From the NCBI RefSeq assembly GCF_003797185.1, contig NZ_RKMH01000007.1:186001-250000 (forward strand): DNA of 64,000 nt. The letters run 5' to 3'. Shown here in pieces: positions 1,856 through 64,000 of this stretch. Origin of the DNA: Gordonia oryzae (GTDB lineage Bacteria; Actinomycetota; Actinomycetes; Mycobacteriales; Mycobacteriaceae). Under the pieces are notes generated by a model. It had not been told where the DNA came from. It did no database searches and was given only the letters and a program-made list of their open reading frames with translations. The translations under genes were made by a program, and so were the position numbers. The first letter of the stretch is position 1. The number at the start of each line of letters is the position of its first letter.

Positions 1856-1886
1856 TCTTCCCGGAAAGCTTCTGCTGCAGCAGTTC

Positions 1887-3565: not shown

Positions 3566-3572
3566 GCACGAC

Positions 3573-3604
3573 GACCCCGCCTCCCGAGTGAGGGAGACGG
3601 GGTC
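3573..3604 (-). terminator. intrinsic terminator hairpin of the L14-S14 operon
   Basis: A 13-bp arm starting GACCCCG (3573-3585) pairs with its complement ending CGGGGTC (3592-3604) with one mismatch and a 6-base loop. It lies 43 bases past the rpsZ stop codon. There is no U-run, as is usual in high-GC actinobacteria. Confidence 0.8.
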
Positions 3605-3646
3605 GCTGTGAGGTGTTATGCAGCCGGTGACATCACCGGCGGGAGG

Positions 3647-3832: not shown

Positions 3833-3833
3833 C

Positions 3834-4412: not shown

Positions 4413-4413
4413 C

Positions 4414-4731: not shown

Positions 4732-4732
4732 G

Positions 4733-7880: not shown

Positions 7881-7910
7881 GCGCAGGAGAGGTGAACGCG
7901 GGAGGGGTGA
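7866..7910. repeat. 15-bp direct repeat, three units, across the pirin stop codon
   Basis: GCGCAGGAGAAGTGA (7866-7880), GCGCAGGAGAGGTGA (7881-7895) and ACGCGGGAGGGGTGA (7896-7910) follow each other. The first unit contains the pirin stop codon, and each later unit repeats that stop. Confidence 0.8.
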
Positions 7911-7914
7911 GCGC

Positions 7915-9665: not shown

Positions 9666-9701
9666 GTCGCGCCTCCTGGGATTTCGGGACTGTCATCCAG
9701 C

Positions 9702-11094: not shown

Positions 11095-11433
11095 TCAGCC
11101 GGCGACGCGCAGGTGTCCGACAGTGTGCTCGAGATGTCGGGCCAGCCATGCGACCACCTGGTCGAGGTTGCGGCCCTGTTCGTCAGGATCGGGGATCTCG
11201 GCCAACTGCGGAACCGAGTGGAGCACCGCCGCGTAGAACGCCGCCTCGCGCGACATACCGTGTTGCGCCATAACCGCCTCGAAGGAGTCGAGCGCCTGGC
11301 CGAGTTCGCCGTAGGTCACCATCTGCCCACCGAAGCGCACCGCCGGCAACGATGGCGTGATGTCCGCCCTGTCGCGGATGTCCTGCAGAAGTTCCTTCAT
11401 GTGACGCTCCCCCACCCGGCTGACTTGATTCAT
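11095..11433 (-). CDS. small protein with an adenylation-domain-like N-terminal segment
   Basis: I prefer the ATG at 11431-11433 (MNQVSRVGERHMKELL), with GAAGG about 9 bases upstream, giving 112 residues. An in-frame TTG at 11484 would add 17. Residues around 30-60 read AVRFGGQMVTYGELGQALDS, closely echoing the entry segment of the NRPS adenylation domains nearby (for example VCGDRRVTYAEFAARVNDL). No later A-domain motif follows. Instead there is an all-helical segment (EAAFYAAVLHSVPQLAEI) and a C-terminal HLEHTVGHLRVAG. It lies next to the mbtH terminator and is read in the same direction as the NRPS operon, but from its own promoter region (11434-11640). I do not recognise its function. It could be a relic or an accessory protein. 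Confidence 0.5.
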   Translation of the reverse strand: MNQVSRVGERHMKELLQDIRDRADITPSLPAVRFGGQMVTYGELGQALDSFEAVMAQHGMSREAAFYAAVLHSVPQLAEIPDPDEQGRNLDQVVAWLARHLEHTVGHLRVAG

Positions 11434-11652
11434 GGTCATCACCCTTCGATCAACCTCCCCGTTGACCGAGGGCGCTTCTTGCAATCAAGAATCGATTGCC
11501 GCGTAACGATATGGGTACCTTACCGCGTGACAGGTAGCGGAATACACACCGAAACTGGTAATGCCCACAACAACTACGGTATAACCGTCAACAGAAACGA
11601 TAGAACGTGTGACACTTTTGGTCTACGTGAATTCCGTGTTTGATGTTGAACG

Positions 11653-11717: not shown

Positions 11718-11951
11718 TCAGCCGTTCTCCCGGGCTGCCTTATCTGCCTCCATCGCGTCGATGAGGCTCTTGGGCCGCAGATCGGTCCAGTTCTTCTCCA
11801 CGTACTCCAGGCACGCGGCACGTGAGTCCTCCCCGAACACCTTGGTCCAGCCGGCCGGGATGTCGGCGAACGTCGGCCACAGCGAGTGCTGGTTCTCATC
11901 GTTCACCAGCACGTAAAAGCGGCCGTTCTCGTCGTCGAATGGGTTCGTCAT
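11718..11951 (-). CDS. MbtH-like NRPS accessory protein
   Basis: The 77-residue protein has all the MbtH hallmarks: [24 protein letters not shown], the [10 protein letters not shown] turn, and WTDLRPKSL near the C-terminus, including the conserved tryptophans. MbtH proteins bind adenylation domains and are often needed for their folding or activity. With 14 A domains encoded directly upstream on the same strand, these are its obvious partners. The start has GGAG about 10 bases upstream. It follows the NRPS2 stop by 55 bases with no terminator between, so it is probably the last gene of that transcript. Confidence 0.96.
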
Positions 11952-12006: not shown

Positions 12007-15000
12007 TCAGTCGTGTTTCACCGTACCGTCCTCGACCTCGTTATCGGCACTCCGCCCCGGTCTCCTGCCCTCCTCCACTACGGAATCGAGCGCCCTCAGT
12101 TCGGCGTCGAGCACAGGGCCGATGAGGGCGAGCGATGCCGCGTCGGCCATCCCGAGATGGTGCGTGGCGACGTCGACGTTGCGGATCTTCCCGGACACGT
12201 AGGCGCGCCACCCCTCGGCGATGGTGCTCGGGTCGTCCTTGTCCTCGGTCGCGGTGAACACCTGCAGATCGCCGAGGAAGACCGCGGGCACGAAATCCAG
12301 GACCACCTGCGGCGCCACCTCGAAGCTCGTCATGATCCGGTCGACTTGATCGGCACCGAGCAATCCCATGCCCTCGATCTGGGCCCGGATGATCGCGGTG
12401 ACCTCCTCCGGTGTCGACGCCTGCACGTCGTCGCCGAGATCGAACAGGTCGCGCCAGCCACCGAGGACATCGACGACGACCGAACCGTCCTGCTCGGCGC
12501 CGGGTCGTGCGGTCGCCTCGGGCGCCGGCTCGACGGTCTGCTTCCTCGCTCCCTGGTCCTCCGGCACGGAGTCCATGACGCCGAGGAAGTCGACGGTCTC
12601 GCCCTCGTTCTGCAGACGTGTGGCCATCGCATGCGCGATCACACCACCGACCGACCAGCCCAGGATGCGATACGGGCCACGCGGTGCGACCTCGCGCATC
12701 CTCGCGACATACCGCTGCGCGAGCGCGTGGGCATCGGTGATCGAGGGTTCGCCGCCGACCACATGCGGGTCCTGTAGGCCGTAGATCGGCCGGTCCGCCA
12801 GATACGGCGCCAGACCGCCGTAGAACCAGGCCAGCCCACCGGCGGGGTGAACGCAGAACAGCGGTGGCTGCGAACCCTCCGCGCGCAGGGTGATCAGCAC
12901 GTCGGCAGTCGCGGCGTCGGCCCCGGTGATGCGTTGCGCCAGTCCGCGCACCGTCGCATCCGAGAACAGCCAGGCCAGTTCGATCTCGAGCTGATGCTCG
13001 CCGCGCAGATACGCCGCGACCCGCGCCGCCGACAGCGAATTGCCACCCAGATCGAAGAAGCCGTCGCCGGCGCCGACCTCATCGACCCCGAGCACCTCGA
13101 CGTACGCGGCGGCGACGGCACGCTCGACGTCGTTGCGCAGCGGCTCGAGCGCACGCTCGCTGATCTGCGGCGCGGGCAATGCCCGCTTGTCGAGCTTGCC
13201 GACCGGGGTAAGCGGCAGGTGCGCGAGCACTGTCATCGACGCAGGCACCATGTGTGCCGGGAGCCGCCGGATCAGATGCGCCCGAAGATCGGCGATCAAA
13301 GTCGTCTGATCGGCGGCGTGGTCGGTCGGCACCACGTAGGCGGCGAGGGCCGAGACCACCGATTCCCCAACTCCGTCAGCACCGACCCCGTCAGCACCGA
13401 CCCCGATGACGACGGCCGCATCGACGAGGTGGTGCCGGCCGAGTTCGGCCTCGATCTCGCCGAGTTCGATCCGCAGTCCGCGCAACTTGACCTGATCGTC
13501 ACTACGCCCCACGTATTCGATGACGTGGCGTCCGTCGGGACCGCGACGCCGGCGTGCGAGATCGCCGGTGCGATACATCCGTGTACCGGGCGCACCGAAC
13601 GTCGCGGCGACGAAGCGTTCGGCGGTCAGACCCGCGCGGTCGAGGTAGCCGCGCGACAGCGCGCACCCGGCGATGTAGAAGTCGCCGACGACACCCTCGG
13701 GCACGGGATGCAGCCGGGCATCGAGGACGACCTGCTGCACTCCGTGCAGCGGCGCACCGATCCGCACCGGCGCCCCCGGAGTCGCGATCTCGCCGATGTT
13801 GGTGAGGATCGTCGTCTCGGTGGGACCGTAGGCGTTCTGTATCCGCACGTGTGCCGACCAGTGATCCTGCAGCGCCTGCGGCACGGCCTCACCGCCGACG
13901 GCGATGCACTCCACCGCCGGCAAGCGGGCCGGGTCGAGGGTCGACAGGGTCGTCGGGGTGAGGAACGTATGTGTCACCTCGCGGTCGATCATGAACTCCT
14001 GCAACACCTCCCCACCCACGGCGTCGACCGGTCGATAGGCCAGGGTGCCGTTGTTGGCCACGGCGAGGAGGTATTCGAGGACCGAGGCATCGAAGCTCGG
14101 TGAGGCATAGCCCAGCACGATCGGCCCGTCGCCGACGCCGAGTCGCGCGGATTCGGCGCGTGCGAAGTTCCACAGTCCGGTGTGCGACACCGCGACGCCC
14201 TTGGGCCTGCCGGTCGAGCCCGAGGTGTAGATGACGTAGGCCACGTTGTCCGGCCGCACCTCCCGCAGCCGCTCCTCGGCGCCGATCGATGCGTCGCCCA
14301 TCGCCGCGATCTCGGCTGCGGTCGACTCGTGATCGGTTGCCACCCAGTCGAAGTCCTCACCCGGAAGCTCACCCACGGAGACGATCGACAAGCCGAGGAC
14401 GGCCCCGGAATCCTCGATCATGGCCGAAACGCGCTCGGCCGGATAGCCGGGGTCGATCGGTACGTAGCCGCCACCGGTCTTGGCAACCGCCCAGATCGCC
14501 ACGAAAAGATCGGACGACCGCGGGATCGCCAGCGCCACCAGTGATTCGGCGCCGACTCCGCGGGCGATGAGCCATCGCGCGAGCCGATTCGAGCGGGCAT
14601 CGACGTCGCGGTAGGACAGCGTCGCGCCGGAGGGGTCGACGACCGCGGTACGTCTGCGCTGGCCGGCGACCGCCGCGGCGAAGATGTCGGCGAGCACCAT
14701 GGGCGCCGCCTCGGGTCCGCCGGACACCGGGACCAGCTCATCGATCTGTTGGGCCGGCAGCAGCGGTGCGTCACCGACCGCGGTGCCCGGCTCGGCGGTC
14801 AGCCGATCCAACAGTCCAACCAGGCTCGCGGCCATCGCCTCCACGCGGTGCGCATCGAAGAGATCGGTGGCGTACTGCACGGCGCCGGCCCAGGAGTGGC
14901 CTGCCGCCGCCGGTGTCACCGAGAACAGCAAGTCGACCTTGGCCGGGATCTCCCCGATCGACAGCGGACGAACCTGCAGACCGGCCACCTCACCGCCGGC

Positions 15001-18000
15001 GACCGACTCGCCGGCGAGTTCGGCGATCACGGACTGTTCGAGGGTGAGCAGGACCTGGGTCAGTGGCGCAAACGCTTCCGAGCGCACCGGATTGAGGTGG
15101 TCCACCAGCGTCTCGAACGGAATGTCGGCGTGGGCGTACGCGTCGAGATCGATGCCCCGGATGCGTTCGAGCAGGCCATGGAAGGACTCCTGAGCCCGAT
15201 AGTCCGACCGCAGGACCAGGGTGTTGACGAACATGCCGATCAGCGGGTCGAGTTCGGGTCGGCCACGGCCGGCGACAGGAGTGCCGACCGCGATGTCGTC
15301 GCTCGCCGAGAGCCGGGCGAGCAGTACCGACAGCGCGGCGTGGATCACCATGAACGGAGTGGCCCGATACTCCTGAGCGAGTGCGGTGATCCGCTCGGCG
15401 ATCAGGCCGTCGATCTCGAAAGGTGTTGTCGCCCCGCGGGTGGACGCGACTGCCGGACGCACACGATCCGTCGGCAGGTCGAGCACACTGGGCAACCCCG
15501 CGAGCTGGTGTGACCAGTAGCCCCACTGCGCGTGCAGGATCGAGCCCGGCTCGTCGACCGACCCGAGGTGCCGGTGCTGCCACACCGCGACGTCGGCGAA
15601 TTGCAGTGCGAGCGGCTCGAACCGCGGTGGCGTTCCGGCCACCCGTGCGTGGTACGCGGTCACCAGATCGGCGACGAGCGGCGCCAGCGACTCGCCGTCG
15701 GCGGCGATGTGGTGCAGCACCAACACGAAGACGTGCTCCTCGGGGTTCGCCGACCACAACCGGGCGCGCAGCGGGAAATCGACGGTGACGTCGAATCCCG
15801 TTGTCGCCGCCGCCCCGAGGTCGTCGCGGCTCCCGGCGATCTGCCAGTCGACCGGCGCGGATACCGGGTGGACGAGTTGCTCGGGCACACCGGCGTTCTC
15901 GGGGAAGGTGGTGCGCAGGATCTCGTGGCGGGCGACGACGTCGAGGACCGCGGCGTGCAAGGCCTCGACGTCCAACGCGCCGTGCAGGGCCAGCGCCGCA
16001 GGCACGTTGTAGGCCGGTGAGGTGGGGTCGAACCGGTTGATGAACCACATGCGTTGCTGCGCAAGGGACAGCGGCACGCGGTCGGGTCGTGGCGCAGGTG
16101 GCACCATCGCCGGACCCGATACGCCCCGGCCGCCGGCGAGGGCGGCGAGTTCCCGGATGCTCGGCGCCTCGAAGACATCACGGACCGAGATCTCGCGTCC
16201 CAGCGCCTCACCGGCGCGCGCCGCCACCCGCATCGCCGACAGCGAGTTGCCGCCCGCATCGAAGAACGATTCGGTCACACTGACCTGCTCGACGCCGAGC
16301 ACACCGGCAAAGACTTCGGCGAGCACCTGTTCGGCCTGGGTGGACGGTGCCACGACTTCCCGCGACTCCTGTTGCGGTGCAGGTAGTTCTCGGCGCGAGA
16401 TCTTGCCAGCGGCATTGAGCGGCATCTGGTCAATCAGCACCCAGATGGTCGGCCGCATGAACTCCGGCAGCGTTCGGGTCACGGTGGCCTTGACGGCATC
16501 GAGGTCGAGGGTGTCGGGTGCGAGATAACCCACCAGCGATTCGCCGGCAGGTGTGGCGACGACCGTCGCGGCGGCATGCACGACCCCTGGGGCGGAGGTG
16601 AGCACGGCCTCGATCTCACCGAGTTCGATGCGTTGTCCGCGCAGCTTGGTCTGGAAATCGGTGCGGCCCAGGTACTCCAGCTCGCCCTCGGTGTTCCATC
16701 GCACCTGGTCGCCGGTGCGATAGAGCCGAGCGCCGGCCGGTCCATAGGGGTCGGCGACGAACCGTTCGGCGGTCAAGGTGGGTTGGCCGGCGTAGCCGCG
16801 TGCCACGAGATCCCCGCCGACGTACAACTCACCGGGCAGTCCCGGCGGCACCGGACGCAGACGCGCGTCGAGGACGAGCGCGGTGGTGTTCCATAGCGGC
16901 GTGCCGATCGGCACGGTGTGGCCGTCGCGCCGGATGTGCTGTACCGCGGCATAGATCGTCGCCTCGGTGGGGCCGTACTGGTTGTGCAGTTCCGTGGCGG
17001 GCAGCAGTCTCCCGATCGCGTCGGCCACCGGGCGGGTGAGCGCCTCACCACCGGTGTGCAGCAGCCGCAACGCCGTGAGTTCGGCCAGGTCGGAGTCGTC
17101 GACGATCTCGGCCATCGCCCCGAGCACCGAGGGCACCAGCGTCGCCGAGGTGACGCCGTGATCGATCATGCGGCGCGTCACCAGCACCGGGTCGCGGTGC
17201 TCTCCCGGGTGGAGCAGGACGAGCCGACCGCCGCACCCCACCGGGCGGACGATTTCGATGATCGCGGGGTCGAAGGTGTACTCGAGTTGTTGCAGCACAA
17301 CATCGTCCGGGCCGAACCCGTAGTAGTCGCGGTCGAAGGCCAGGTGCGTGCTCAGCGCCCGGCGTGAGACAGTGACACCCTTGGGTCGACCGGTGGACCC
17401 GGAGGTGAAGATGGTGTAGGCCGCGTGCTCGGGACGAACCGTCGCGAGGCGTTCGCCTGCGGTGACCGCGATGCCGCCGGAGTCGACGGCACCGGGATAC
17501 ACGGCGGTGACGGCGTCGACCGTCAGGGTCTGCACATCGGGCAGTGCGGCGATCCCGTCGGGGATCGGGCCGGGTCCGACGAGGACGAGTGCCGCGCCGG
17601 CAACGTCGGTCATGTAGCGCACCCGATCTGCCGGTGCACCGGTGTCGATCGGCACGAATTGCCCGCCGGCAACCCACACGGCGTGGATCGCCACGATCAT
17701 CTCCACCGAACGCGGGATGCACACGGCCACAGCCGTATCCGGCCCCACTCCCGACGCGATCAGTTCACGGGCGAGGATGTTCACGCGGGTCGATAGTTCG
17801 GCGTAGTCGACTACCCGCTCATCGGCGATCACCGCGATGGCCCCGGGGGTGTCAGCGGCCCGGCAGGCCAGCAGATCGGTGACCGCATCGCCGTCGACCG
17901 GTACCACCGCACCGTGCGACCAGTCGTCGAGTAGCGTCGCGGTGGCCGAATCCACCAGCGGCACTTCGGCGATCGGGGTGTCCGGTGCGTCGACGAAGGT

Positions 18001-21000
18001 CTGCAGGATTCGGGTGAGTGCGATGGCGAAGATCATCATCTGCGCCTCGTCGAATGCCGCGGGCAGATACGCGAATCGCAGGTGGAGCCGATCCCCGCGC
18101 ACCGAGGTCGCCAGATTCAGCGGGTAGTGGGTGGAGTCGCTGACGTCCACGCCACGCACCTGTAGTCCCCCGACCGCAGTCGGCGACGCCGACGACAGGG
18201 AGGCGGTGTCCACCGGGTACGACTCGTGCACGGTCAGGGTGTCGAAGGCGATGGGAACGCCGCTATGCGCGATGATCTCGGGCAGACCGAGATGCTGGTG
18301 GTCGAGGACCGCGGTCTTGTCGTCGTGCAGGGCGCTCGCCAGGGCCGCCAGAGTGGCGTCGGGATCGACGTCGACGACCACCGGCAGCGTATTGATGAAC
18401 AAGCCGACCATGTTCTCCACGCCGGGTAGATCAGCGGGACGGCCCGACACAGTCTCCCCGAAGGTGACCACACGCGACTCCGAGAGCCGCGAGATCAGCA
18501 GCGCCCAGGCGACCTGCAGCACGGTGGCCAGGGTGGTGCCGTGTCGCCGCACCGAATCCTCCAGTGCGGCAGTGAGTTCAGCCGGAACGGTAACGATGTG
18601 TTCGGCGGGTCGGTGTGCGACGGTGGCCTCAACACCTGGCGCGACGAGGGTCGGCCCCTGCGCACGAGCCAGTCGTCGTGCCCACGCCTGCAGCCCCGCG
18701 CGATCGTCGATGCGGCCGATGTGATGTAGGAAGTCGCGGAAGTCTCCCCCGGAGCCGTCGCCGGTGTAGGCCGATCCGGTGGCATACAGCGCCATCAGGT
18801 CGGCCAGGACCAGTGGCCCCGACCAGCCGTCGAACAAGATGTGGTGGTTGGTGATCACCACATCGGTCTGATCGCCGTGACCGATCACCACCACCCGGAG
18901 CAGCGGCGGCGACGCGAGGTCGAACGGCTCGTTGCGTTCCTGCCGCGCGATCTCGGCCACCCGATTCGGTGCCGCGGCGTCGTCGGCGAGGCGCACGACC
19001 CGCCACCCGGCCCGTGCGTCGGGCGGGATCACCGCGAGGACCGCACCACTGCGGGCCCGCACGAACCCGGAGGCGAGCACCCGGTGTCGGAGCAGCAACT
19101 CGTCGGCGGCCGTGCGCAGCCGGTCGAGGTCGACGTTCCCGCCGAGCCGGAGCACCGCCTGGGTGACGTACGCATCGACGACGTCGGCTGCGGTGTCCGC
19201 AGTGCCACCCGAGGCAACCGTGGCCGGGCCGGTACCAGCGAGCACCGACTGAAAGTAGAGGCCGCGTTGCAACGGCGACAGCGGCCAGATCGCCGCTCCC
19301 GGATACCGCGCCGCCACCTCGTCGAGGTCGTCCTGGGTGGCGTGGCTGCCGGGGACGTCCGACGGTGAGAGACCCACCGGCACACCGGCGTCGACGGCTT
19401 CGGTGAGTTCGGCCAGTTCTCGCCGCCACCGCTCGGCGATGTCGGTGGCGTCGGCCTCGGAGAGCACGGCCTCGGCGAATCGCAGATCGGCGGCCAGTAC
19501 CGGACCGTTGGCACCGGTGGTGACGGCGGCATTGATGGTCAGCGGCGCCATCACCGGCATCGCCCCCGACACCGAGGACGGCAGGAACGGGGCCTCGGGT
19601 GCGGGCAGGAAGTCGGAGCCGACGCTGACCTCTCCCCCGCCGTCGGCGGCGGCCCGGTTGCCGAGGTAGTTCAGGGCGATCGTCGGCAGCGGTCGCTGCG
19701 CCAGAGGCGAATTCGCCACCGAACGCAGGTCGGCGAATCCGATGCCGTGATCGGGGATCGTCAGTCGTTGTTCCTTGGCCGACTTGACCGCGTGCACGGC
19801 GTCGGCACCCGGATCGACAAGCATCGGGATCAGGGTGGTGAACCATCCGACGGTGCGCGAGAGGTCGGCGCGACGCGGGTCCGGGCCGGACTCGAGGATG
19901 TCCTCGTGTCGGCCGTGGCCCTCGACGAGGATCGTCACCGCCTGATCGTCGGCGATACCGCGCTGCTGCTGCCAGGACCGGATCGCGCGCGACAGGGTAC
20001 CGGCGAGAACGTCGTTGACGCTGCCGCCGAATGCTTGCGGCACGGCCGTGAGCAGTGGCCCGGTGGTCGGCGCGTCGACCCGGGCGATCACCGAGCCGAC
20101 CGTGCGCAGGCGGTCCCGCTGCGGATCGGGGTCGACGCCCAGCCGGGTGGGTGTCTCCGGGATACGCGAGAGCCACAGCGCCAGTTCGGATTCCCGCGAC
20201 TCGCGCCGATCGGCCAGCGCCAGTTGCCAGGCACGCATCGACGTCGGCTCGCAGCGCACGGTCGGCGGGGTGCCGGCCGACACCGCAGCCGCAGCGGTGA
20301 GCAGGTCCTCGATGATGATCGGCCACGACACGGCGTCGACGGCCAGATGGTGGATCACCAGGACCAACCGGGCGGTGTCGGCGCCGACCACCAGCGCGGC
20401 CCGCATCACGTGCCCCGCGGCTGGATCCAGTAGCGCTGCCGCGCGGGCATGAGCGGCGCGCAGAGCACCGTCGAAATCTTCTGTGCCGGGGGCACTGTCG
20501 GTGATCACACGGTCGATGGCAGCATGCGCGTCGAACGGCTCGCCGGTCGTCAGCGCCCACCCGGATGCGCCGCGGACCAATCGCGCCGTGAGCATCGGAT
20601 GTGCCGCGCAGACCGCCGCCAACATGATCGCGAGATCGTCGACCGACAGTTCTCTCGGTGCCGCCAGCACCATCGACTGGTTGAAGTCGGCGAAGTCCTC
20701 AGGTGCGGGCGAGGTGTCGACCATCCACGAGATGATCGCGCCGAGTTCGGTCGGCCCGGTGGGTCCGCCGGGTGGGTCGGCGAGTACCGGCAGGGCGGTG
20801 GCACCGTCGGTGGCCGCGCGGGCCATCGCGCGAACGGTCTTGTGTTCGAAGATGTCTCGCGGGGTGAGCGTCAGTCCGGCGGCCTTGGCTGCCGAGGCGA
20901 GCTGGATGGACATGATGGAGTCGCCGCCGAGGGCGAAGAACGATTCGGTCACGCCGACCTCGTCACGACCGAGGAGGCCGGCCACGATCGCGGCGAGAGC

Positions 21001-24000
21001 GGTCTCGGCGGCGGTGGCCGGCGACACGCGATCGGCGGCCTCGAACACCGGCTCCGGCGCGGGCAGCGCGGCCCGGTCGAGTTTGCCACCCGGGGTGAGC
21101 GGCAACTCGGCGAGGACGACCACCTGATGCGGGATCATGTGACCGGCGAGCCGTGCACCGGCGGCGCTCACGATGCGCGCGGGGTCGATGGTGGCGCCAT
21201 CGTCGGGAACCAGGTAGGCCACCAGTCGCGATCGCCCGGAATCGTCGGCGACACCGAGGACCACCGCCGAGGCCACGTCCGACAGGTCGGTGAGAACGGA
21301 CTCGATCTCGCCGAGTTCGATGCGTTGTCCGTTGATCTTGACCTGATGGTCGGCGCGCCCGGCGAATTCGATCTGCCCGTCGCGGCGCATGCGTACCAGG
21401 TCGCCGGTGGCGTACATCCGCTGCCCGGGGACTCCGGTGAACGGATCGGCGACGAAGGACGTCGCCGTCAGGCCCGGCCGTCCCAGATAGCCGCGAGCCA
21501 ACGACTCGCCGGTCCCCAGATACAACTCGCCCACCACCCCGCGCGGCACCGGGTGCAGTCGCGCGTCGAGGACGTAGGCGGTGAATCCGCGGACCGGGTG
21601 ACCGATCGTCACCGGTCGGCCCACTTCGGAGCGGCCGGTGCTCGACCAGACCGTCGCCTCCGACGGGCCGTAGAAGTTGTACATGCGGCGGCCGGGGGCT
21701 CCGCGTCGGTCGGCACCGCATCCGTCAGCCCACCGCGCCACCAGTTCCGGTGGGCAGGCCTCGCCACCGGTGACCAGGTTGCGGATCGTGCGACCACGCT
21801 CGGCCGGGACCGTCGAGAGCACCGTCGGGGTGATCAAGGCGTCGGTCACCCGATCACGGCTCAGGATGGCACCGAGTGCATCCCCGGCGTAGGCGGCCGG
21901 GGGCGCCACCACGAGGGTGTGTCCGAGCGCAACGGACCACATCATCTCCAGTACGGAGGCGTCGAAACTCGGTGAGGCAACGTGCAGGACGCGGGTGTCG
22001 GGCGCCTGTTCGGGGGTGCCGGTGATCTCCCGGAGGGCGTCGACGAGACTCGCGATACCCCGGTTGCCGACGCCGACGGCCTTGGGGCGGCCGGTGGAGC
22101 CGGAGGTGTAGACGAGGTAGGCCAGGGTGTCCGGGCCGATCTCACCGGCACGGTCGGCCGCGGCCACCGGCGCTGCCGGAAGGGCAGGATCGGTGGCGAT
22201 CGCGACATCGATCCAGTCGCAGCCACCGGTACCCAGGCGGTGTCGGGTAGCCGCATTGGTGACGCCCAGGCGCACACCGGAATCAGCGATCATGTAGTCG
22301 ATGCGGTCCTCGGGGTAGGCCGGATCGATGGGCACGTAGGCGGCCCCGGAACGAATCACGCCGAACACCGCCACGACGGAATCGACGGAGCGCTCGAGGC
22401 CGACGGCGACCACGTCGTCGGGACGCACGCCGCGGGCGATGAGCTCACGCGCCAACCGGTGGGTGCGCTCGTCGAACTCGGTGTGCGAGAGCACCTCGCC
22501 GTCGCAGATCACCGCATCACCGGCCGAATCGAGCACCCGCGCGTCGAGGATGTCGACGAGTGGTCGGGGTGTACTGATGCCGCCGTCGGCGGCGGGCTCA
22601 AGGACGCCGGTGGAATTGCGGCTGGGACGCATCGCCGAGAGCGCGGCGTCGTCGACGACGTCGATGTCGCCGACCGCGCGCCGGGGGTCGGCGACCATGG
22701 TGGTGACCACCTGCAGCCAGGTCTGCGCACACCGGACGACGGTGTCCTCATCGAACAGCGATGTGGCATAGAGGAAGTCCGCACGCATCGGATGATCGGC
22801 GGAACGGTCGGCGACGGCGACCGTCAGATCGAACTTGGCCACCGCGTTCAGCGGTCCGAGCGGGCGTGCGGCCAATCCCGCCACCTGAACCTCAGCCTCG
22901 GCGTTTGCGTGGGCGCCGGCGGATTCATGGGTGAACGCGATCTGCACCAGCGGCGGGTAGGCGGTCGAGCGCTCGGGGGCGAGTTCGTCGATGAGGTCGT
23001 CGAATTGCACGTCGGCGTGGGCGAAGGCATCGAGGTCGGTCGAACGCACCGCCGCCACGAAGTCACCGATTGGCACTGCCGGATCGACGTCGGTGCGTAG
23101 CACGAGGGTGTTGACGAACATACCCACCAGATCGGCGAGCGCGGCGTCGGTGCGCCCGGCGATCGGCGCGCCGATCACCACGTCGGAGGTGGCGGCCAGG
23201 CGTGCCACGGTGATGGCGAGCGCCGCATGCGAGAGCATGAATGCCGTCACATCATGTTCGCGGGCAAAGGATTCGAACTTCGCCGCCACTGCGTCGTCGA
23301 CTTCGACGGAGACGACGCCCGCCGTCGTGTCGAGCACCGCGGGGCGCGGGCGGTCCATCGGCAGGTCGGTGACCGCGGGCAGCCCCGCGAGGTGGGCACG
23401 CCAGTAGGCCATCGCTGCGGCGGCCGGCGACCCGGGATCGGCGACGTCGCCGACGACCTCACGCTGCCACAGCGCGAAGTCGGCGTACTGCACCGGCAGC
23501 GGCACCGGCGCGTCGATCCCCGCACCGGTGCGGCGCAGATAGGCATTGAGCAGATCCCCGACGAACACCGGCGAGGACTCACCGTCGAAAGCGATGTGGT
23601 GCACCGTGATCACCACATCGGAATGCGCGGCGCAATCCTTTGCAGGGCGGTCCTCGCTCCGGTCGGTGCGCACCCGCACCCGGATCGGCAGTCGGCTCGA
23701 CACGTCGAACCCACCGACGGCGCTCGCGGCGAGTGCGGCCTCGTCGTCGGTGACCGCGAAGTCGAGTTCTCCTGCCGCCGCATCGATCTCGAGTATCCGC
23801 TGGTATGGACCGGCATCGTCGGACGGGTAGACGGTGCGCAGCACCTCGTGTCGTTCGAGGACGTCGAGGACGGCCAGCCGCAGGGCGTTGGTGTCGACCG
23901 CACCCTCCACCCGCAGGCCCATCGGGATGTTGTAGGCCGACGAGTCGGTGTCGAACTGGTTGATGAACCACATCCGAGACTGCGCGGTCGACAGCGGAAG

Positions 24001-49700: not shown

Positions 49701-52700
49701 ATCACCGAGGACCGGGGTGTCGAAGACGTCGCGGACCGACACCTCGACCCCCAGTGCCTCACCGAGGCGCGCCGCCACCCGCATTGCTGCCAGCGAGTTG
49801 CCGCCGACGTCGAAGAAGGAGTCGGCCAGGCCGACGCGCTCGACGCCGAGGACATCGGCGAATACCTGCGCCGCGACCATCTCGCGGTCAGAGGTGGGTG
49901 CGACGTACTCGGCGGTCTGCGCCTGTGGCTGCGGCAGCGCGCGACGATCGACCTTGCCCGCACTCCCGAGCGGCATCTGTTCGAGCACCATCCAGGTGGT
50001 GGGCCGCATGTACTCGGGCAGGGCGGCACCTACCGCGGACTGCGCTGCGGCGAGATCGGCGTTCCCGGGTGCAAGATAGGCGACGAGTTGTTCACCGGCG
50101 GCGGTGTGCGCCACCGTGACTGCGGCATGGACAATGCCCGGTACGCCGGCGAGGACAGCCTCGATCTCGCCGAGTTCGAGGCGCTGGCCGCGCAGTTTGA
50201 CCTGGAAGTCGGTGCGGCCCAGGTATTCGAGTTCGCCATCGGCGTTCCATCTCACCCGGTCACCGGTGCGATAAAGCCGCGAGCCTGCCGCTCCGAACGG
50301 GTCGGCGATGAATCGTTCCGCGCTCAGGTCCGCCCGTCCTGCGTAACCCCTGGCGACTTGTACGCCACCGAGATAGAGCTCTCCGACAACGTTGTATGGG
50401 ACCGGACACATGCGGTCGTCGAGCACATGTGTGGTGGTGTTGGCGACCGCACGGCCGATGGGGATCACAGTGTCGGACAAACGAACCCGATGCTCGGTGA
50501 CGTCGACGGCGGCCTCGGTCGGCCCGTAGAGATTGTGGAGTTCGACGTGGCCGAGAAGCCTGAGCAGATCGTGTGCGGGCGCCACGGGAAGCGCTTCGCC
50601 CGAGGTAAACACCAGCCGCAGCGACGTCAAGTACCCGATGCTGCTCCCCAGGGAATCGAGGAAGGCGGCCAGCATCGACGGCACGAAGTGCATCACCGAC
50701 ACCGAGTGCTCGGTGATCAGCGAATGCAGGTGTTCGGCGTCGCCGTGCCGCCCGGGCTCGGCGAGCACCAACGATGCCCCGTGAATCAACGGCCACACGA
50801 GCTCCCACACCGACACGTCGAAGGTGTACGGGGTCTTCTGCAACACAACATCGTCCGACGTCAGTCGATAGTGTTCCTGCATCCATGCGATTCGGTTCTC
50901 GATCGCATCATGCGACACCGTGACCCCCTTGGGAGTGCCGGTGGAGCCGGAGGTGAACAGGGTGTAAGCCGCGTTGGCACCCCGCAGTGCTCCCCGCCGT
51001 TCGCTATCGGTGACAGCAGAATAATCAGCGCCGAAGGCGGTGTCGGCGTCCACGACGACCATGGTGAGTCCGAGACCGGTGCCCGCCTGCGCCACGGTGG
51101 TCGCCCCCGAATCGGAGATGATCGCAACCGTGATGTGAGCCGTCTCCACCATCGCCGCCACACGCGCGAGAGGCGTCTCCACGTCGACGGGTACGTAGTG
51201 CGCACCGGCCGCGAGTACGGCATGGATCGCGATCATCATCTCCATCGAGCGCGGAACACTCACCGCCACAGCGGTATCCGGTCCGACGCCGAGGTCGATG
51301 AGACCCAGCGCGAGTTCGCGAACCCGGGCCCCGAACTCGCCGTAGGTCATCCGACGACGTCCGAAGACCAGCGCCACGGCATCAGGAGTTCGGGCCACCG
51401 CGTGGCCCACCTGCGCCACGATCGACGTGGCCGACGGTTCGATCTGCTCACCGTCCGACCAATCCGCGACCCGAGCTGCGCGCGCCGGCCCCATTAGTGA
51501 TACACGACCGACCGGATTGTCCGGTGCCGCGGTCAGCTCTGTGAGCACTCGAACGAACATGTCGGCGACCGCGTCAATGGTGGATTCGTTGAACAGGTCG
51601 GTGGCGTAGAGCAGGGAGCCCGTCCATGCACGTCCCGCACCGACGGCCTGCACGGAGACGGTGAGGTCGACCTGCGCGGGCACTGAAGGCGAGGCCATCG
51701 GCGCGACCATCAGACCGGCCACCTGGGCTCGGGTCAATGCATCACCGGCAGTGCCCGCGACAGTGGTCTGGTCAAAGGTGAGCATCACCTGTGCGAGCGG
51801 GGCGAACGCCGCGGAGCGGATCGGGTCGAGTACCTCGACGAGCGTTTCGAACGGCAGGTCGCTGTGTGCGAATGCGTCCAGGTCGGTTGTCCGAACATCA
51901 TCGAGAAGGCGCCGAAAGTCCCCAAAGCCGTCGATATGGGTCCGCAACACCAGCGTATTGACGAACATGCCGACCAGGCGATCGAGGTCGCGGCTACCCC
52001 GTCCGGCGACCGGAGTGGCGATAACGATGTCGGTGGTGGCCGCAAGGCGCGACAAGAGCACCGCGAGCGCTGCGTGCACGATCATGAACGGAGTGGCACT
52101 CGACGAGGTGGCGAGTGTGGCGATCTCGGCCGTAACCGTCGCCGGGATCTCGAAATCGACACGGGAGCCCAGGTGGGAGGCGACAGCCGGTCGCGGCCGG
52201 TCGAGGGGAAGTTCGAGAACCGGCGCGAGGCCGCTCAGTTGCGTGGTCCAGTAGTCGAGCTGGCTACCCATGATCGAGTCCGCGTCGGTCGTGGCGCCGA
52301 GAACACGATGCTGCCAGAGTGCCACGTCGGCGAATTGAACCGGTAGCGGCTCGAAGCCCGGAACCGTCCCGTTCATCCGCGCCGTATACGCGGCAAGCAG
52401 ATCAGCCACCAAGGGCGCCAGCGACTCTCCGTCAGCGGCCACGTGATGCAGAACCAACGCCACAATCGCGCTGGCGCCGTCCGCGTCGCGGCCGAGCACA
52501 TCACCCGGCGGTTCGTGGAAGACCCTGCCTCGGATCGGCCATACCCGGGTGAGGTCGAATCCTGCTGTCGCAGCGGCTTCGAGACCGTCGTAGGTTTGCA
52601 CGACGGCCCAATCGAGCGTGTCGTCGATGGCCTCCACCGGATGGATGAGTTGATACGGAGTTCCCCCCTCATCCGGGAAAGTCGTGCGCAGTATCTCGTG

Positions 52701-55700
52701 CCGTGCAACCACATCTCCGACTGCAGCGCGCAATACGTCATGATCGAGTGGCCCGGTCACCCGTAGAAACAGCGGGATGTTGTACGTGGCCGCATCGGGT
52801 TCAAATCGGTTGATGAACCAGATCCGTCGCTGGGCAAAAGACAACGGGATCCGTTGCGGCCTGGGCGACACCGCGGTCACCGGCGGCAACGCCGCCGCAT
52901 GCCCCCGCGTACGCGCGAGAAGCTCACGCACCGAAGGGGCATCGAAGACGTCACGCACCGACACCGACACACCCAACGCACCTGACACCCGCGCCGCCAA
53001 CCGCGTCGCCGACAACGAATTACCACCCACATCAAAGAAGCTCGCCGTCACCCCCACCTCATCGACGCCAAGGACCTCAGCGAACACCGCAGCCACCCGA
53101 GCCTCATCCACCGTCGCCGGCGCCACCACCTCACCGACCGACACCCCGGCATCCGGCAACGGCAACGCCCCACGATCCAACTTGCCGTTCGCCGTCAACG
53201 GCAACCCCGCTACCTCAACCACCAAGTCCGGCACCATATAACCCGGCACCACCCGCGCCACCCCGGCACGCACCTGCGACGCCTCGACCACCGAACCCGG
53301 CTCACCCACCACATACCCGACGAGCTGCTCACCACGACCCGGCAACTCCACCACCCGAGCCGCCGCAGCACCCACACCCGGCACCGACAACAACGCCGAC
53401 TCGATCTCGCCGAACTCGATCCGATAGCCACGCAACTGCACCTGTGCGTCACCACGGCCCACGTACTCGATATCCCCGGCGGTCCGTCGCGCCAGATCAC
53501 CCGTGCGGTACATCCGCGCACCCGCCGGACCGAACGGCGAGGCCACGAATCGCGTCGAGGTCAATCCCGAGCGCCGCAGATAGCCCTGCGCCAGCTGACC
53601 ACCCACCACATACATCTCGCCCACCACGCCCTCGGGCACCGGACGCAACCGCTCATCGAGAACATGAATACCCAACGACGCCAACGGGCGACCGATGAAC
53701 GACGCATCGCCCGCCGACACCACCGCACGATCCAACGGCCGGAAACTCACATGCACCGTCGTCTCGGTGATGCCGTACATGTTCACCAGCCGCGCACCAT
53801 CGCCAGGATTATCATCAAACCACCGACGCACCTGCTCGAAACTCAACGCCTCACCGCCGAACACGATGTAGCGCAACGCCGACGAGAACTCCGGCACCCG
53901 TCGGCGGGCCTGCGCCACTTGATAAAACGCCGACGGCGTCAAACTCAACACCGTGACCCGCTCCGCGGCAAGCAACCGTAGGAACTCCTCAGGAACCCGC
54001 GCCACCTCACGATCCACCACCACCAGACGGCCACCAGTCAGCAGCGGCCCCCACAACTCCCACACCGAAAAATCAAACGCATACGAATGGAACATCGTCC
54101 ACACATCATCAGCCCGGAACTCGAAATCACCCGCAGCCGAATCCATCAACGTCACCACATCACGATGAGTGACCTCCACCCCCTTCGGCCGACCCGTCGA
54201 CCCCGACGTATAAATCACATACGCACGCGAATCCGGATGCACCACAACATCATCAACACCACCCGCACCCGACGCGGCCAGCGACTCCACCGTCACCACA
54301 TCCACGCCGGCACCCAGCTCGGCCCACAACCGAAGTCCCGACGACACCTCATCGGTCACCACCACCCGCGGCGCGGCATCTGCGACGATGAACCGCAACC
54401 GATCCACCGGATTACTCACGTCCAATGGCAGATACCCTGCACCCACGCGCAACACACCCACGATCGCGGCCACCAGGTCCACCGACCGCGACGGTGCCAC
54501 CGCAACCAGATCACCCTCGCGCACACCACGGGCCCGCAACCCCGCGGCCACCGCCCCCGAGCGTTCGCCAAGCTCTGCGTACGACAACGACACCGACCCA
54601 GCCGTCACCGACCCACGCTCACCGAAACGCCGCACCGAACCCGCGAACAACTCCACCAACGAACGCCCCGAGTTCGCGGTCACCGTCGCCGGTGCCACCA
54701 GCGACCGACGGTAGCTGTCCTCGTCCACCAACGGCACCGATGACACCGGAGCACCCGGATCCGCCACCAACGCGCGCAACACCCGAACAAGAATGTCGGC
54801 GAACACATTTACCTGGCCCGCGTCGAATGCGGCAGGAAGATACTTGAGTTTGAGCTCTATCTGATCGCCGATGACACCACTGACGAGGTTGAGCGGGTAC
54901 TGGGTGGCATCGGAGGCGCTCAGATCCTTGATCCCAATTCCACCGACAGCACTTGCGCCGGTGAGTGATTCGGCATTCACCGGATAGGACTCGTGCACGG
55001 TGAGGGTATCGAAGAGCGGCCCCTTGCCGACCAGCGCGGCCAGGTCTGGCAGACCGATGTGCTGGTGGTCGAGGACCGCGATCTTGCTCGACGCGATCGT
55101 GTCGAGAATATCCGCCATGGCGGCGCCGGGATCAACGTCGACCACAGCGGGCAGGGTGTTGATGAACAAGCCGACCATGGTCTCGACGCCGTCGAGATCG
55201 GCGGGGCGGCCCGACACGGTCTCACCGAACGTCACCACCTGATCTCCGGTGATGCGCGAGAGCAACGACGCCCACGCGAACTGCATCACCGTCGAGACGG
55301 TGACACCCCGCGTCCGGGTGAGTTCTTCTATGCCCGTGGTCAATTCCGCGTCGAGAAGAACACTGTGGTCACGCGGGCGCAGGTCGGTGGTGGCCTCGAG
55401 CCGTGGCGCGAGCAGGGTCGGTTCGACGACGGCATCGAGGACCGATCGCCAGGCGCGCAAACCTGCATCGGTATCGACGTTCGCGATGTGGCGCAGATAA
55501 TCCGCATAATCCCCGGCGCCGGTCGACCTGGACGCCGTGTAGGCGTGGCCGGTGGCGTAGAACGCGAAGAGATCAGCGAGGATGAGCGGCGATGACCAAC
55601 CGTCGATGAGGATGTGGTGGCTGGTCACGATGAGGACGGACTCCGTGCCGTTGCGCACGAAGACGAATCGCATCAACGGTGCCGATTCAAGATCGAATGG

Positions 55701-58700
55701 GCGGGAACGTTCGGACTCGGCGAGCGTCTCGATGGCCTCGGCATCGGCCGATTCGACGAGTTGCCACGGTACCTTGACCGTCTCGCGGACGACGGCAACG
55801 ACCTCACCGCTGCCCACACGTATGTAGGACGAGCGCAGCACCCGGTGCTCGTCGAACAGGGCTTGCACCGAGCTGCGCAGGCGTTCGGCGTCGATTTCGC
55901 CGTCGAGTGCGACCACGGCCTGGGCAACGTAGACATCGACGGCGCCGTGCGCGTGCCCCGCAGCAGCAAGTTCGGACTGGAAGTGCAGACCGCGTTGCAG
56001 CGGCGACAACGGCCAGATCTCGGCGCGGGGGAATCGTCGTGCGAGGTCGTCGAGATCATCCTGGGTGACCTGCGCGCCAACGACATCCGAGGGCGATCGC
56101 CCCGGATCGCCGACCGCTGCGACGTACTCGACGATCGCAGCGAGCTCGACTTCCCAGCGGCGGGCGAGATCGGCGACGTCGCCACCATTCATCGCCCCCG
56201 CCGGGAATCCGAATCCGGCCTGTAATGCTCGGCCCTCGGTCGTGACGATGGTTCCGGCGGTGATGGTGATCAGAGCAGTGACCGTCATCGCACCGCGGAC
56301 CGTGCCAGGTAGACGAAGAGCATTCGGATCGGGTAGCAAAGGCCCAGCGACGCCTTCGGTCACCACGCCACCACTGACATTGCCGAGATAATTGAAGGCG
56401 ATGGTCGGCAATGGCGCCGACGACAGTGCGCCGCCACGATCGAACCGCAGCAGCCCGAAGCCCACTCCGTGATCTGGCTGTCCGAGCCGCTCTTCCTTGG
56501 CCGCCTTGACGGTGCGCGCGGCCCCGCCGACGGGATCGACCGCGATAGGGGCGACGGTGGTGAACCATCCCACCGTGCGCGACAGGTCGACCGCACGGGG
56601 ACTCTCGTCGGCCAGTAGCACTTCCTCGTAGCGGCCGTGCCCCTCGACGAGCATCGTGATCGGCGCCTCGTCGGCGATCCCCCGATCACGCTGCCACGAG
56701 CGGACCGCTCGCGCCAGCGCGGCGACGAGCGCGTCATTGACGTTGCCGCGGAAAGCTTCCGGTATCGAGGTGAGCAGCGGCTCGGCGAGATGCGGCTCGA
56801 TGGTGTGCACGATCTCGGAGACGGTGGACATGCGATCACGAGTGCGATCGATCGCGACGCCGAGATCGGTGGCCCGGCTACGCGCGGCCCAATAGCCGAG
56901 TTCCTGCCGGCGCGAATCGCGTTGGGAAGCGACGGCACCGATGAAGGCGCGCGCCGAGGTGGACTCGGGTCGCAGCGCGTATGCAAGTCCCCCGAGATGT
57001 TGCCCCCACGCGGTCACCAGGTCCTCGATGATCGCGCGCCAGGACACCGCGTCGACACCGAGGTGGTGGATGACGACGACGACACGCCGCTGCTCACCGG
57101 TTCCGACGAGGACAGCCGATACCAGTTGTCCGAGTGCTGGATCGAGTCTCGCCGACGCCGCACCGAACGCGGCGACGATTGCTGCCGAAGCACCGCCGTC
57201 GGGGATGTCGGAGTGTTCGGTGACCGCGGTGTTCGCGTCGAACCGACCTGCCCCCGACTGCAGATGCCACCGCCCGTCGAGTTCGGTCAACGTGGCCGTG
57301 AGCATCGGATGGTTGTCGACGACCACCTCGAGCAGCGCACGAAGTACCGGAAGCGTGAGCTCGTCGGGGGCGTGCAGCACCATCGACTGGGAGAAGTCGG
57401 CGAAGTCGGCGGCGGAGTCGGCGTGCTCGAGCAGCCACGAGACGACCGGTGGCATCGACATCGGCCCCGTGGCGCCGCCACTGGGCTCCTCGAGTACCGC
57501 AACGGCCGCGCCTCTCCGCTCGACGGCGCGGGCAATGGCGCGAATGGTCTTGTGCTCGAATATATCTCGAGGAGAAATTTCAATCCCGACCGCGCGCGCC
57601 GCCGACGCCAGCTGGATCGACATGATCGAGTCACCGCCGATGGCGAAGAACGACTCGGTGACGCCGACACGCTCGACTCCGAGGAGACCGGCGACGATGC
57701 CTGCGAGGTGGTGTTCGACGAGGTTCTCCGGTGCAATGTGCTCGACATCGACGACGAGGACCGGCTCAGGTAGCGCGCGGCGGTCGAGCTTGCCCACCGG
57801 GGTGAGCGGAAGGGCGTCCAGAACGACAATGGTCGCCGGCACCATGTACAACGGAAGCTGCTGTGCCACATGATCACTCAAGACCTGTAGCTCGACGGGT
57901 TCGCTGGCCACGACGTATCCGGCCAGCGATGCGACCACCGATTCGCCACTGCCTGCAATTGCGCCGTCGGGTCGGACTCCGACCACAATGGCAGTGTCGA
58001 CGGCCGGATGGGCCGACAGCACCGACTCGATCTCGCCCAGCTCGATCCGCAGACCGCGCAACTTGACCTGATCGTCGCTGCGACCTCCGTAGGCAAGAGA
58101 CAGACCATTGTCGGTGGCCACCCACCGGACGACGTCGCCGGTGCGGTACATCCTCTCTCCTCGATCGGAGAATGGTTGCGCAACAAATCTTTGCGCGGTC
58201 AGTCCGGGCCGATCGAGATATCCTCGGGACAGACCGGACCCGACGATGTACAACTCGCCGAGCACACCGATCGGCACCGGGCGCAGACGACCGTCGAGCA
58301 CCAGTAGACCGACGCCGTCGATCGGGGGGCCGGTCAGCACGGGGCTCTCTGCCGACATCGGCGGTCCGATCGTGACGCCGATGGTGGTCTCGGTCGGACC
58401 GTAGAGGTTCTGGAAACGAACCCACGTACTCCAGTGATCGCGCAGCGACTCCGGGACCGCCTCGCCACCGGCGAAGACGGTGTGTAGGGACGGGAGTTCG
58501 GCGGGATCCAGTGAGGCGAGCACGGTGGGGGTCAAGAAGGTGTGGGTCAGCCGCTCGGACCGGATGAACTCCTGCAGCGGCGCACCGGCCACCGCGTCCG
58601 CCGGGCGATAGACGAGTGTGGCCCCTGCGGTGAAGGCCAGGAGATACTCCAGCACCGACGCGTCGAAGCTCGGCGACGCAAAACCCAGGACCCGGGCGTC

Positions 58701-61700
58701 CTCGGAGATGTCACCACGTCGAGCCTCCTGCACGCCGAAGTTGTGTAACCCGCGGTGGGTCACACTGACCCCCTTGGGGCGGCCCGTGGAACCGGAGGTG
58801 TAAATGACGTAAGCGGTGCTGTCGATGCGCGCCCGGCCGTGCAGCTCATCTGGACGGACAGGTTCGGCGGAGTGCTCGGCCGTGGCGTTGGCGAACTCCG
58901 CGGTATCGACCGACAACCACCTGATCGGCTTCTGGCCCGAAACGACCGGCAGGTCGTCTGCCTGTCCACACAACCCGAGCTCGGCACCGGAGTCCTCGAT
59001 CATCGTGCGGACGCGTTGCGGAGGGTAGTCAGGATCTATCGGAACATAGGCTCCGCCGGTCTTCGCGACCGCCCAGATGGCGACCATCAACTCAACCGAC
59101 CGCGGCAATGCCAGGGCTACAAGAACTTCCGGCCCGACACCGCACTCGAGGAGATACCTCGCCAGTCGATTCGACGCGACGTCGAGTTCGGCATAGGTCA
59201 GCGATCGGATCGGATCGCTGACCGCCACATGCCCGGGACGGCGGGCGGCAGCCTCGGCAAAGATCTCCGAGAGCAGGACCGCAGGGGCACCGGGCGCGGT
59301 TCCCACCGGTGTCAACGCGATCGCCTCGCCACGCGACAGCAGCGGCGCGTCGCCGACCGCCGTCTCGGGTCGGGCCACGAGGTGCCCGAGCAGGTCCACG
59401 AACCGGGACATCATGGTCTCGACAGTGGGCGCGTCGAAGAGGTCGGTGGCGTAGTTCGCCCGTCCGGTCCACGCCCCCGTGCGTCCGGCGCGCACACCGA
59501 CCGTCAGATCGACCTTCGCGGAGGTCTCCTCGATCTCCACGACGCCGACGGCGAGGTCGTCGAGGTCGGCAACCATAGCCGCCGGGTCAACGGGATTCTG
59601 CTCCACCGTCAGCAAGACCTGCGTCAGTGGCGCGAAAGCTTCCGAGCGCGTCGGCGACACGGCGTCGACGACGGTCTCGAATGGCACGTCGGCATGGGCG
59701 AACGCGTCGAGGTCGGTCGTGCGGACCGCGTCGAGGAAGTCGGCGAAGGTGGCGGCACCGTCGACCGCGGTCCGCAGGACGAGGGTGTTGACGAACATGC
59801 CGACGAGCGAGTCGAGAGCCTGATCTCCCCGGCCCGAGATCGGGGTACCGATCGCGATGTCATCGGTGGCGGCCAGCCGTGACAACAGCACCGCCAGCGC
59901 GGCATGGATGACCATGAACTCGCTGATACCGCGGGTCGCGGCGAGCACGCGCACCGACTCCGCAGTGCCGGCAGGGATCTCGAAGCCGACCTCGGCGCCA
60001 CGCATCGAGGCGACGGCCGGTCGTGGGTGCGTGGTCGGCAGGTTCAGCACATCCGGTAGACCCGCCAGCCGGTCGGTCCAATACGCCAATTGCGCCGACA
60101 CCACCGACCCTGGGTCGGTGGCCGAGCCGAGCACCTCCCGCTGCCACAGTGCCACGTCGGCGAATTGCACTGCCAGTTCCGCGAATTGCGGTGTGCGACC
60201 ACGTGAGCGGGCATGGTAGGCGGTCACCACATCGGTGACCAACGGGCGCATCGACTCGCCGTCGCCGGCAATGTGGTGCACCACGATGAGCACGATGTGT
60301 TCGAGATCCTCGACGCGGCGAATCCGGACCCGGATGGGATGGTGGGCGGTGACGTCGAATCCTGCTGCCGCAGCGGCGAACAGCTCGGACTCGTCGTCAA
60401 CGACCGCCCAGTCCAGCAGCGAGCCCGTCAACGATCGGTCGGTCACGACCTGGCACGGCGCGCCCTCGACGGACCCGAAGGTGGTGCGCAACACCTCGTG
60501 GCGGTCGATCACGTCGACCATGGCCGCGCGCAGCGCCGACAGGTCGAGTTTGCCGGAAAGGCGCAGAGCGATCGGGATGTTGTAGGCACCCGAGTAAGTG
60601 TCGAACTGGTTGATGAACCAGATCCGCTGCTGCGCGTAGGACAGGGGGATGCGCTCCGGGCGTGGGTGATGCGCGCGCACCGGGGCAAGCCCGGCACCGC
60701 GGCCGACCACCCGGCGTGCGAGATCGGCGACCGTCGGTGCGTCGAAGAGATCGCGGACGGCGATCTCGACGCCCAGTGCCGCACCCGCACGGGCGGCGAC
60801 GCGCATGGCGGCCAACGAATTTCCGCCGATGTCGAAGAACGAGTCGGTCACCGACACCTGGTCCACGCCGAGCACCTCGGCGACGACGGCGGCGATGGCC
60901 GACTCCGCGGGCGTGGACGGCGCGACGACCTCGGTATGCGTCGCTGGCGCCGGATCGGGCAGCGCTCGGCGGTCGATCTTGCCCGCACTGTTGCGGGGCA
61001 TGGCCTCGAGTACCACCCAGACCGACGGGCGCAGGTGCGCGAGCAGCCGGTCGGCCACCGCCTCGGCGATGACCTCGGTGCGAAGCGTGTGGCCAGGGTG
61101 ACCGACCACGTAGGCAACCAGTACGTCCCCGGCCACCGACGATCTGACGTCGGCTGCTGCGGCGATGACGCCGGGAACCGACGACACCACCGACTCGATC
61201 TCGCCGAGTTCGATCCGTTGCCCGTGTAGTTTGACCTGGAAATCGGCGCGCCCCAGGTACTCGATCTCACCATCGGTGGTCCATCGGGCCAGGTCCCCGG
61301 TGCGATAGAGGCGCTGTCCCGGCGCACCGGACAGGTCCGGACCGCAGGGATCGGCGATGAATCGTTCCGCGGTCAGCGCTGAGCTGCGGGCGTAACCACG
61401 GGCCATCTGGGGGCCGGCGAGATAGAGTTCGCCGGGCACGCCCGGCGGGACCGGACGCAGACGTCGGTCAAGGATTCGGGCCAGCACACCCAAGGCAGGC
61501 CGGCCGATAGTGACGGTCTCGCCCGGCTCGGTGAACGTCGCGATCGTCGTGTCGACCGTCATCTCGGTGGGCCCGTATTGGTTGATCATCGTCGCGTGCG
61601 GCGCCACGGCGAGCGTGTGCTGCGTCAACGCGGGAGTCAATGACTCACCACCGGTATAGATCCGGCGCACCGTCGACAGCGCCGCGGACGCATCCGAGAC

Positions 61701-64000: not shown

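Follow-up and report, generated by a model that had tools for sequence, protein, structure and literature searches.

The window analyzed here, a stretch of 64,000 nucleotides from Gordonia oryzae (bases 186001–250000 of contig 30 in an assembly of 4.52 Mb), contains most of a nonribosomal peptide synthetase (NRPS) assembly line, and by continuing the reading past the window edge we found that the complete line comprises 17 modules encoded by three same-strand genes, N1 (2,762 aa), N2 (approximately 13,460 aa), and N3 (approximately 4,640 aa). We consider it likely that the locus encodes, in full, the core of a pathway for a Gordonia lipopeptide, and that what looks like the product of a single strain is a variant of one shared in Gordonia. 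Related but rearranged lines occupy the same chromosomal position, next to a ribosomal gene cluster with rplE as the landmark, in most of the Gordonia genomes surveyed. Features of the line given below are on the minus strand, and positions beyond the window are given as window equivalents.

Architecture of the 17-module line

Two open reading frames (ORFs) on the minus strand, 12007–25932 and 25779–63998, are NRPS frames without stops, the second of which is still open at the window edge. Counting with profiles made from the line's own domains, we found 14 adenylation (A), 14 condensation (C), 4 epimerization (E), and 14 whole thiolation (T) domains together with one thioesterase (TE) in the window. 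An earlier reading made from the window alone (the sequence-only reading) had arrived at the same numbers of A, C, E, and TE domains and had proposed at least 14 modules, in agreement with the 17 of the whole line. N3, the last NRPS protein (12010–25944; 4,645 codons from stop to stop and 4,641 aa from the first start codon), has the domain order A14-T-C-A15-T-E-C-A16-T-C-A17-T-TE. The giant protein N2 (25782–64000, continuing to 66164; 13,461 codons) runs from A3 to A13 and includes three E domains; A3 and part of its T domain fall outside the window. N1 is encoded at 66074–74359, also outside the window, and opens with an N-terminal C domain that precedes the first A domain. The line ends at contig position 260359 (window equivalent 74359), and the portion beyond the window adds three A and three C domains, resulting in 17 A, 17 T, 17 C, and 4 E domains and one TE, where the C domains consist of one starter, 12 ordinary domains, and four that follow an E domain.

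The E domains, assigned by domain parse and a C-domain tree, sit after modules 5 (56154–57482), 8 (45030–46391), 12 (30681–32045), and 15 (19426–20775, with the motif HHLAVDA), and the TE (release) domain with its GWSVG motif is at 12010–12935 (Pfam Thioesterase, 2e-27; PDB 7crn, 4.4e-38). The C-domain tree recovered one N-terminal starter, 12 ordinary C, four C after E, and four E domains in each of the lines of G000 and G030; these classes agree with the domain positions, and the starter forms its own branch apart from the LCL, DCL, and E types, in a tree that covers the C and E domains of these two lines. The sequence-only reading had described all core motifs as intact, which holds for HHxxxD (all 21 C and E domains of the full line), for the A3 and A7 cores (all 17 A domains), for the T-domain serine (17 of 17), and for GWSVG in the TE, but not for core A8, whose strict pattern is present in only 13 of the 17 A domains with departures in modules 1, 3, 4, and 6. 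With repeated C-A-T modules that carry the core motifs and a terminal TE that carries the serine motif, the line has the properties of a type I modular NRPS, and it is a well-formed example of this already known kind. A chance origin of the frames is not a concern: genome wide, 22 of 34 matches to the Condensation model lie in the NRPS locus (a single domain accounts for two of the 22), and none of these 22 contains an internal stop.

We read nine-letter pocket codes from an alignment of the A domains of nine genomes. The first four pockets are DFWSVGMVH, DVWHFSLVD, DFWNVGMVH, and DAWQYGQVD (A4, 61008–62561), which we take to specify Thr, Ser, Thr, and Gln, respectively. On the same assumption, and with each domain placed by pocket code and domain parse, A6 (53217–54686, DFWSVGMVH) is a Thr domain and A7 (49983–51485), A9 (41763–43577 with its T domain), and A14 (24352–25821, DVWHFSLVD) are Ser domains, so that residues are assigned for 8 of the 17 pockets: three Thr, four Ser, and one Gln. 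The other codes are DALFFGLIG in A5 (57819–59327), DVPHFSLVE in both A8 (46731–48236) and A12 (32379–33887), DCPHSTLVE in A10 (38817–40364), DALFYGLIG in A11 (35574–37052), DALFIGAVA in A13 (27633–29198), DALLVGFVW in A15 (21115–22566), DPITHGQIY in A16 (16435–17946), and DALFAGAIL in A17 (13228–14757). All nine codes that the sequence-only reading had spelled out (DVPHFSLVE twice), as well as its Thr, Ser, and Gln/Glu-like calls, were reproduced by this independent derivation. The resulting module order is starter-C-Thr-Ser-Thr-Gln-D-X5-Thr-Ser-D-X8-Ser-X10-X11-D-X12-X13-Ser-D-X15-X16-X17-TE.

In the pathway that we propose, the starter C domain of N1 would most likely condense threonine with a fatty acyl group, the three proteins would together add the 17 residues in the order given above with four epimerizations along the way, and the TE would free the peptide, perhaps as a macrolactone via the side chain of a Ser or Thr residue. 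The MbtH-like protein encoded next to the line presumably supports the A domains, and a DrrABC-like transporter encoded at its other end may move the product to the envelope or the medium, where it could serve as a surface lipopeptide or a biosurfactant. Skipping or repetition of modules and separate working of synthetases occur in other NRPSs, and N1 and N3 could accordingly work apart or modules be skipped or repeated, giving a shorter or longer product than a single 17-residue line would. Komaki et al. considered that a Nocardia cluster with two TE domains might yield two products (PMC4035055). Here, the source genome has one TE match at E ≤ 1e-30, there is a single C domain of the starter type, and each of the two protein boundaries falls between the C and A domains of one module, the halves of which complete each other, which makes such an arrangement improbable.

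The position beside rplE and the interior of the lines

A scan with the TE region across named genomes, which may leave out the window's own records, returned 26 loci, the top one being from Gordonia polyisoprenivorans (94% identity), followed by 15 more from Gordonia (48–67%), one from Jongsikchunia (67%), seven from Nocardia (47–50%), and two from Williamsia (49–51%). By this comparison, the source organism is a Gordonia near G. polyisoprenivorans. Among 59 Gordonia genomes, 57 encode a relative of the N1 starter region (E ≤ 1e-60), 57 encode a relative of the TE region (E ≤ 1e-30), and all encode rplE (50S ribosomal protein L5), which in the window is at 3834–4412 on the minus strand (NCBIfam PRK00010, 7.6e-89) and served as the landmark for the chromosomal slot. 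In 54 of the 59 genomes, a TE relative shares its strand with rplE and lies 2.4–30.5 kb 5' of it. This count is based on 62 N1 and 63 TE rows (counted by hand) from the match tables with weaker or second rows omitted, such as the second TE of G009 and the second N1 of G074 and G075; the N1 row of G014, on the other side of rplE, was excluded and its TE counted. The remaining five genomes are G011 and G080, which have contig breaks, G017, which has N1 and no TE match there, and G012 and G023, which have no match. The distance from the start of the line to the TE ranges from 31.6 to 108.9 kb with a median of 45 kb in the 38 genomes in which both ends are on the rplE contig. Two tandem lines are suggested in G025, G031, G036, G075, G076, and G078, and for such genomes only the line adjoining rplE entered the slot distances. 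In 151 genomes of the wider family, TE relatives (E ≤ 1e-60) were identified in 20, nine of which are Gordonia. Of the 11 others, seven (six of the eight sampled genomes of genus g39, and G093) likewise have the TE in the orientation of rplE and approximately 3–32 kb 5' of it; in the rest it is either far from rplE on the same contig (G130 and G160, which belong to other genera of the family) or on another contig (G156 and G159).

This distribution bears on whether the line is simply ordinary accessory metabolism, such as a strain-level antibiotic whose likeness to other Gordonia loci reflects the general similarity of NRPS modules. Module order does vary widely across Gordonia. In a pan-genome survey, 531 clusters from Gordonia fell into 326 families, with NRPS accounting for 171 of these; 79.75% of the families were singletons, and no specialized-metabolism genes were placed in the core or soft core (PMC9680422). 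However, the near-universal relatives of both ends of the line, and their TE being within 31 kb of rplE on one strand in so many genomes, are not what free insertion would give, and we regard an accessory origin as quite unlikely. In the literature covered, which leaves out most subscription journals, we found no account of a shared NRPS locus beside rplE.

To compare the interiors, we parsed the individual domains of the locus in 29 genomes, among which the lines of G032 and G015 stop at contig edges and that of G020 lacks its 3' end. Modules were counted with our own profiles, a few codes being unreadable, and the A counts may be too low where frames are broken or gapped (G061 and, less so, G004, G062, G018, G021, and G071). 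The shortest complete lines contain 9 A domains (G027 and G007) and the longest approximately 31, one of which has an odd code (G035). The G035 locus, read as a single line, spans 104.5 kb (contig 1, 3462000–3568500), and no nonribosomal peptide system with an established product is known to us to have as many modules. A frame of 17 or 18 modules is common to eight genomes, seven with 17 modules and four E domains (G000, G034, G028, G030, G011, G063, and G069) and one with 18 modules and three E domains (G013). All eight share Thr3, Gln4, Thr6, DCPHSTLVE followed by DALFYGLIG, and Ser followed by DALLVGFVW, and the other positions vary.

The nearest relatives, G034 and G028, also have 17 modules, E domains at 5, 8, 12, and 15, drrABC-like genes, and mbtH, and their codes are identical to those of the window in 15 of 17 pockets; they differ at pockets 5 and 9, which read DALFLGMVA and DPLRIGQIN instead of DALFFGLIG and Ser. 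The sequence-only reading had taken the peptide to be uncharacterized and its residue pattern to be perhaps new. Six of the pocket codes, searched as text, did not occur in the papers covered, in line with that view, but these two relatives have nearly the same pattern. N2 is 89% identical to its G034 counterpart overall and mostly 88–100% per 100 residues, with dips in the module-5 region (53–81%), in C-A7 (58–81%), and in A9-T (31–77%), the last of which has sharp edges; against G028, identity in A9-T is 29–78%. A search for the donor of the A9-T block in the 59 genomes (E ≤ 1e-150) found no DNA match elsewhere better than 69% among the five candidates scored per genome from approximately 150–390 at first look, and a donor may have escaped it. 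Between G030 and G011, N2 is 96–100% identical over approximately 5,100 residues (aa ~4500–9600, or ~15 kb) with flanks of 62–96%, which suggests a recent exchange of a large tract between these two lineages. Blocks of modules are dissimilar even in pairs of lines whose remaining sequence is approximately 96% identical, and recombination is known to change A domains in other NRPSs (PMC9205934). As a separate observation, the C domain of module 8 contains a 27-bp in-frame tandem repeat (9 aa, ~2.5 copies; 49112–49178), in place of which the relative G034 carries a short repeat of another sequence.

A shared slot with a shuffled interior may be the part that specialists do not expect. The slot-based view suggests that methods based on orthologs or cluster similarity can overlook a shared locus in which modules are shuffled. 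If it is correct, products of this class would be characteristic of Gordonia at large and open to testing across many strains, and the alignment of the lines would provide naturally occurring swaps of A domains and modules among closely related synthases, from which suitable sites for cutting and joining modules could be learned. More tentatively, and we think rather doubtfully, this could be a core, position-fixed lipopeptide locus of Gordonia whose ends and slot are fixed while interior modules are exchanged, gained, and lost, its product being a species-specific envelope barcode kept variable by phages or rivals. The literature on Gordonia envelopes and phage receptors that we searched offered no direct support for an envelope role.

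Flanking genes and nucleotide skew

Directly 3' of N3 is a gene for an MbtH-like protein (11718–11951, minus strand; Pfam MbtH, 1.8e-30), followed by one for a small protein without a Pfam family (11095–11484, minus strand), similar proteins being encoded 3' of several related lines. Ahead of N1, in the same orientation, lie genes for an ABC ATPase that scores above the NCBIfam DrrA cut-off and for two DrrB-family permeases that score below the NCBIfam cut-offs. Same-strand drrABC-like genes are found 5' of N1 in eight of the nine lines whose 5' flank covers 3 kb or more (G000, G034, G028, G030, G011, G013, G032, and G015), and an MbtH relative is encoded in 21 of the 29 genomes, mostly directly 3' of the line. 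Exporter genes and MbtH are thus common, though perhaps not universal, companions of the line. Near rplE, slightly 3' of a small ribosomal-protein-like ORF (3647–3832, minus strand), there is also a 21-bp tandem repeat of 5.6 copies (3446–3563).

Several points weigh against the locus being the complete core of a lipopeptide pathway. Domain order, motifs, pocket codes, flanking genes, and the slot are shown by sequence, whereas the lipid, the residues of nine pockets, cyclization, export, and the role are deduced, and no metabolite has been seen. Nine of the 17 pockets have no secure substrate (DVPHFSLVE, DCPHSTLVE, the DALxxGxxx group, and DPITHGQIY), the starter domain was classed without comparison to proven acylating C domains, and that the three proteins would act in series is deduced from collinearity and the split C//A boundaries. 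Extension to the right, which the sequence-only reading had recommended for finding the start and any fatty-acyl ligase or starter C domain, did reveal the N-terminal C domain on its own tree branch, but Pfam models identified no AMP or acyl ligase among 19 neighboring proteins, a set that did not extend to the ORFs at approximately 1–9,700 of the window. The TE relatives in 6 of the 54 slots are just 38–42% identical to the window TE. The drr genes of G020, the ninth of the lines with the longer 5' flank, are on the opposite strand, and among the 20 lines with approximately 1 kb of 5' flank, 10 have a same-strand drrC-like gene, three have only opposite-strand drr genes (G004, G009, and G031), and seven have none. 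No MbtH relative was identified in 8 of the 29 genomes, three of which (G020, G032, and G015) are without the 3' end of the line.

The segment encoding A6-T lies in a block of intense nucleotide skew (52665–54965, 2.3 kb), with a GC skew of 0.33 and a TA skew of 0.40 on the coding strand, and the skew is confined to this segment of the 13.5-kaa frame. Third codon positions in the block are 56–61% G and 14–17% C, compared with 28–41% G and 32–52% C in other sampled stretches. Among five close relatives compared, G034 and G028 have the skew as well, and G030, G011, and G013 do not have it at that place. The block resembles the genetic repeats of intense nucleotide skew (GRINS) of polyketide synthases, which are kilobase-scale elements with GC and TA skew above 25% (PMC10394414, PMC9899208), in its scale, its skew, and its position inside a modular synthase gene. 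GRINS additionally require a repeat of at least 80% in the same synthase, whereas the best match of the A6-T block is 69% within the line and its best long match in the genome is 68%, and we therefore ruled it out as GRINS. In G020 (contig 1, 3906399–3966335), an open NRPS frame of 19,979 aa contains six skewed blocks, four of which lie wholly within repeats of at least 80% identity, reaching up to 91–97%; elements with the defining properties of GRINS therefore occur in a Gordonia NRPS line. Duplicated NRPS genes that share nucleotide skew have been noted before (PMC9205934).

Comparison with known systems

Published counts of NRPS clusters in Gordonia are eight for G. lacunae (PMC5629046) and six for G. 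alkanivorans (PMC6362181). The product of the line could be mainly a secreted biosurfactant rather than an envelope component, like gordofactin of G. alkanivorans strain 1B, a possibility that we consider real, if somewhat unlikely. In its favor, G013, which is probably G. alkanivorans NBRC 16433, carries the 18-module relative of the line. Against it, the gordofactin paper describes the substance solely through its infrared spectra and bulk composition, as far as covered here, and does not contain the term NRPS (PMC11720751), and sugar genes are not evident at the window locus beyond one GT2 gene on the opposite strand.

The mycobacterial glycopeptidolipid is made by four modules with reductive release. 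Like the product proposed here, it is an acylated nonribosomal peptide that needs an MbtH-like protein (PMC3537567), but its constant core is a tripeptide-amino alcohol, in contrast to 17 modules and a TE. Lipopeptides of 17 residues of the ramoplanin/enduracidin type are made with many hydroxyphenylglycine modules, and none of the 17 codes in the line resembles the hydroxyphenylglycine code, no reference sequence having been compared.

Also comparable are three Nocardia clusters, #4, #35, and #36, that are predicted to make long Ser- or Ser/Thr-rich peptides of 11, 12, and 13 residues, respectively, as opposed to 17, and whose role is given as unknown (PMC4035055); we liken them to the line by description rather than by sequence. 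Clusters #4 and #35 are present in all seven strains of that study, although the copies of one and two strains are partial (PMC4035055). Lipopeptide clusters with C-starter domains are abundant in Rhodococcus and their products are mostly unknown (Ceniceros et al. 2017, PMC5550956). These Rhodococcus NRPSs share with the line their N-terminal C-starter domains and, in many cases, Ser/Thr-rich predictions; they are mostly clade specific (PMC5550956), whereas relatives of both ends of the line are found in nearly all Gordonia sampled.
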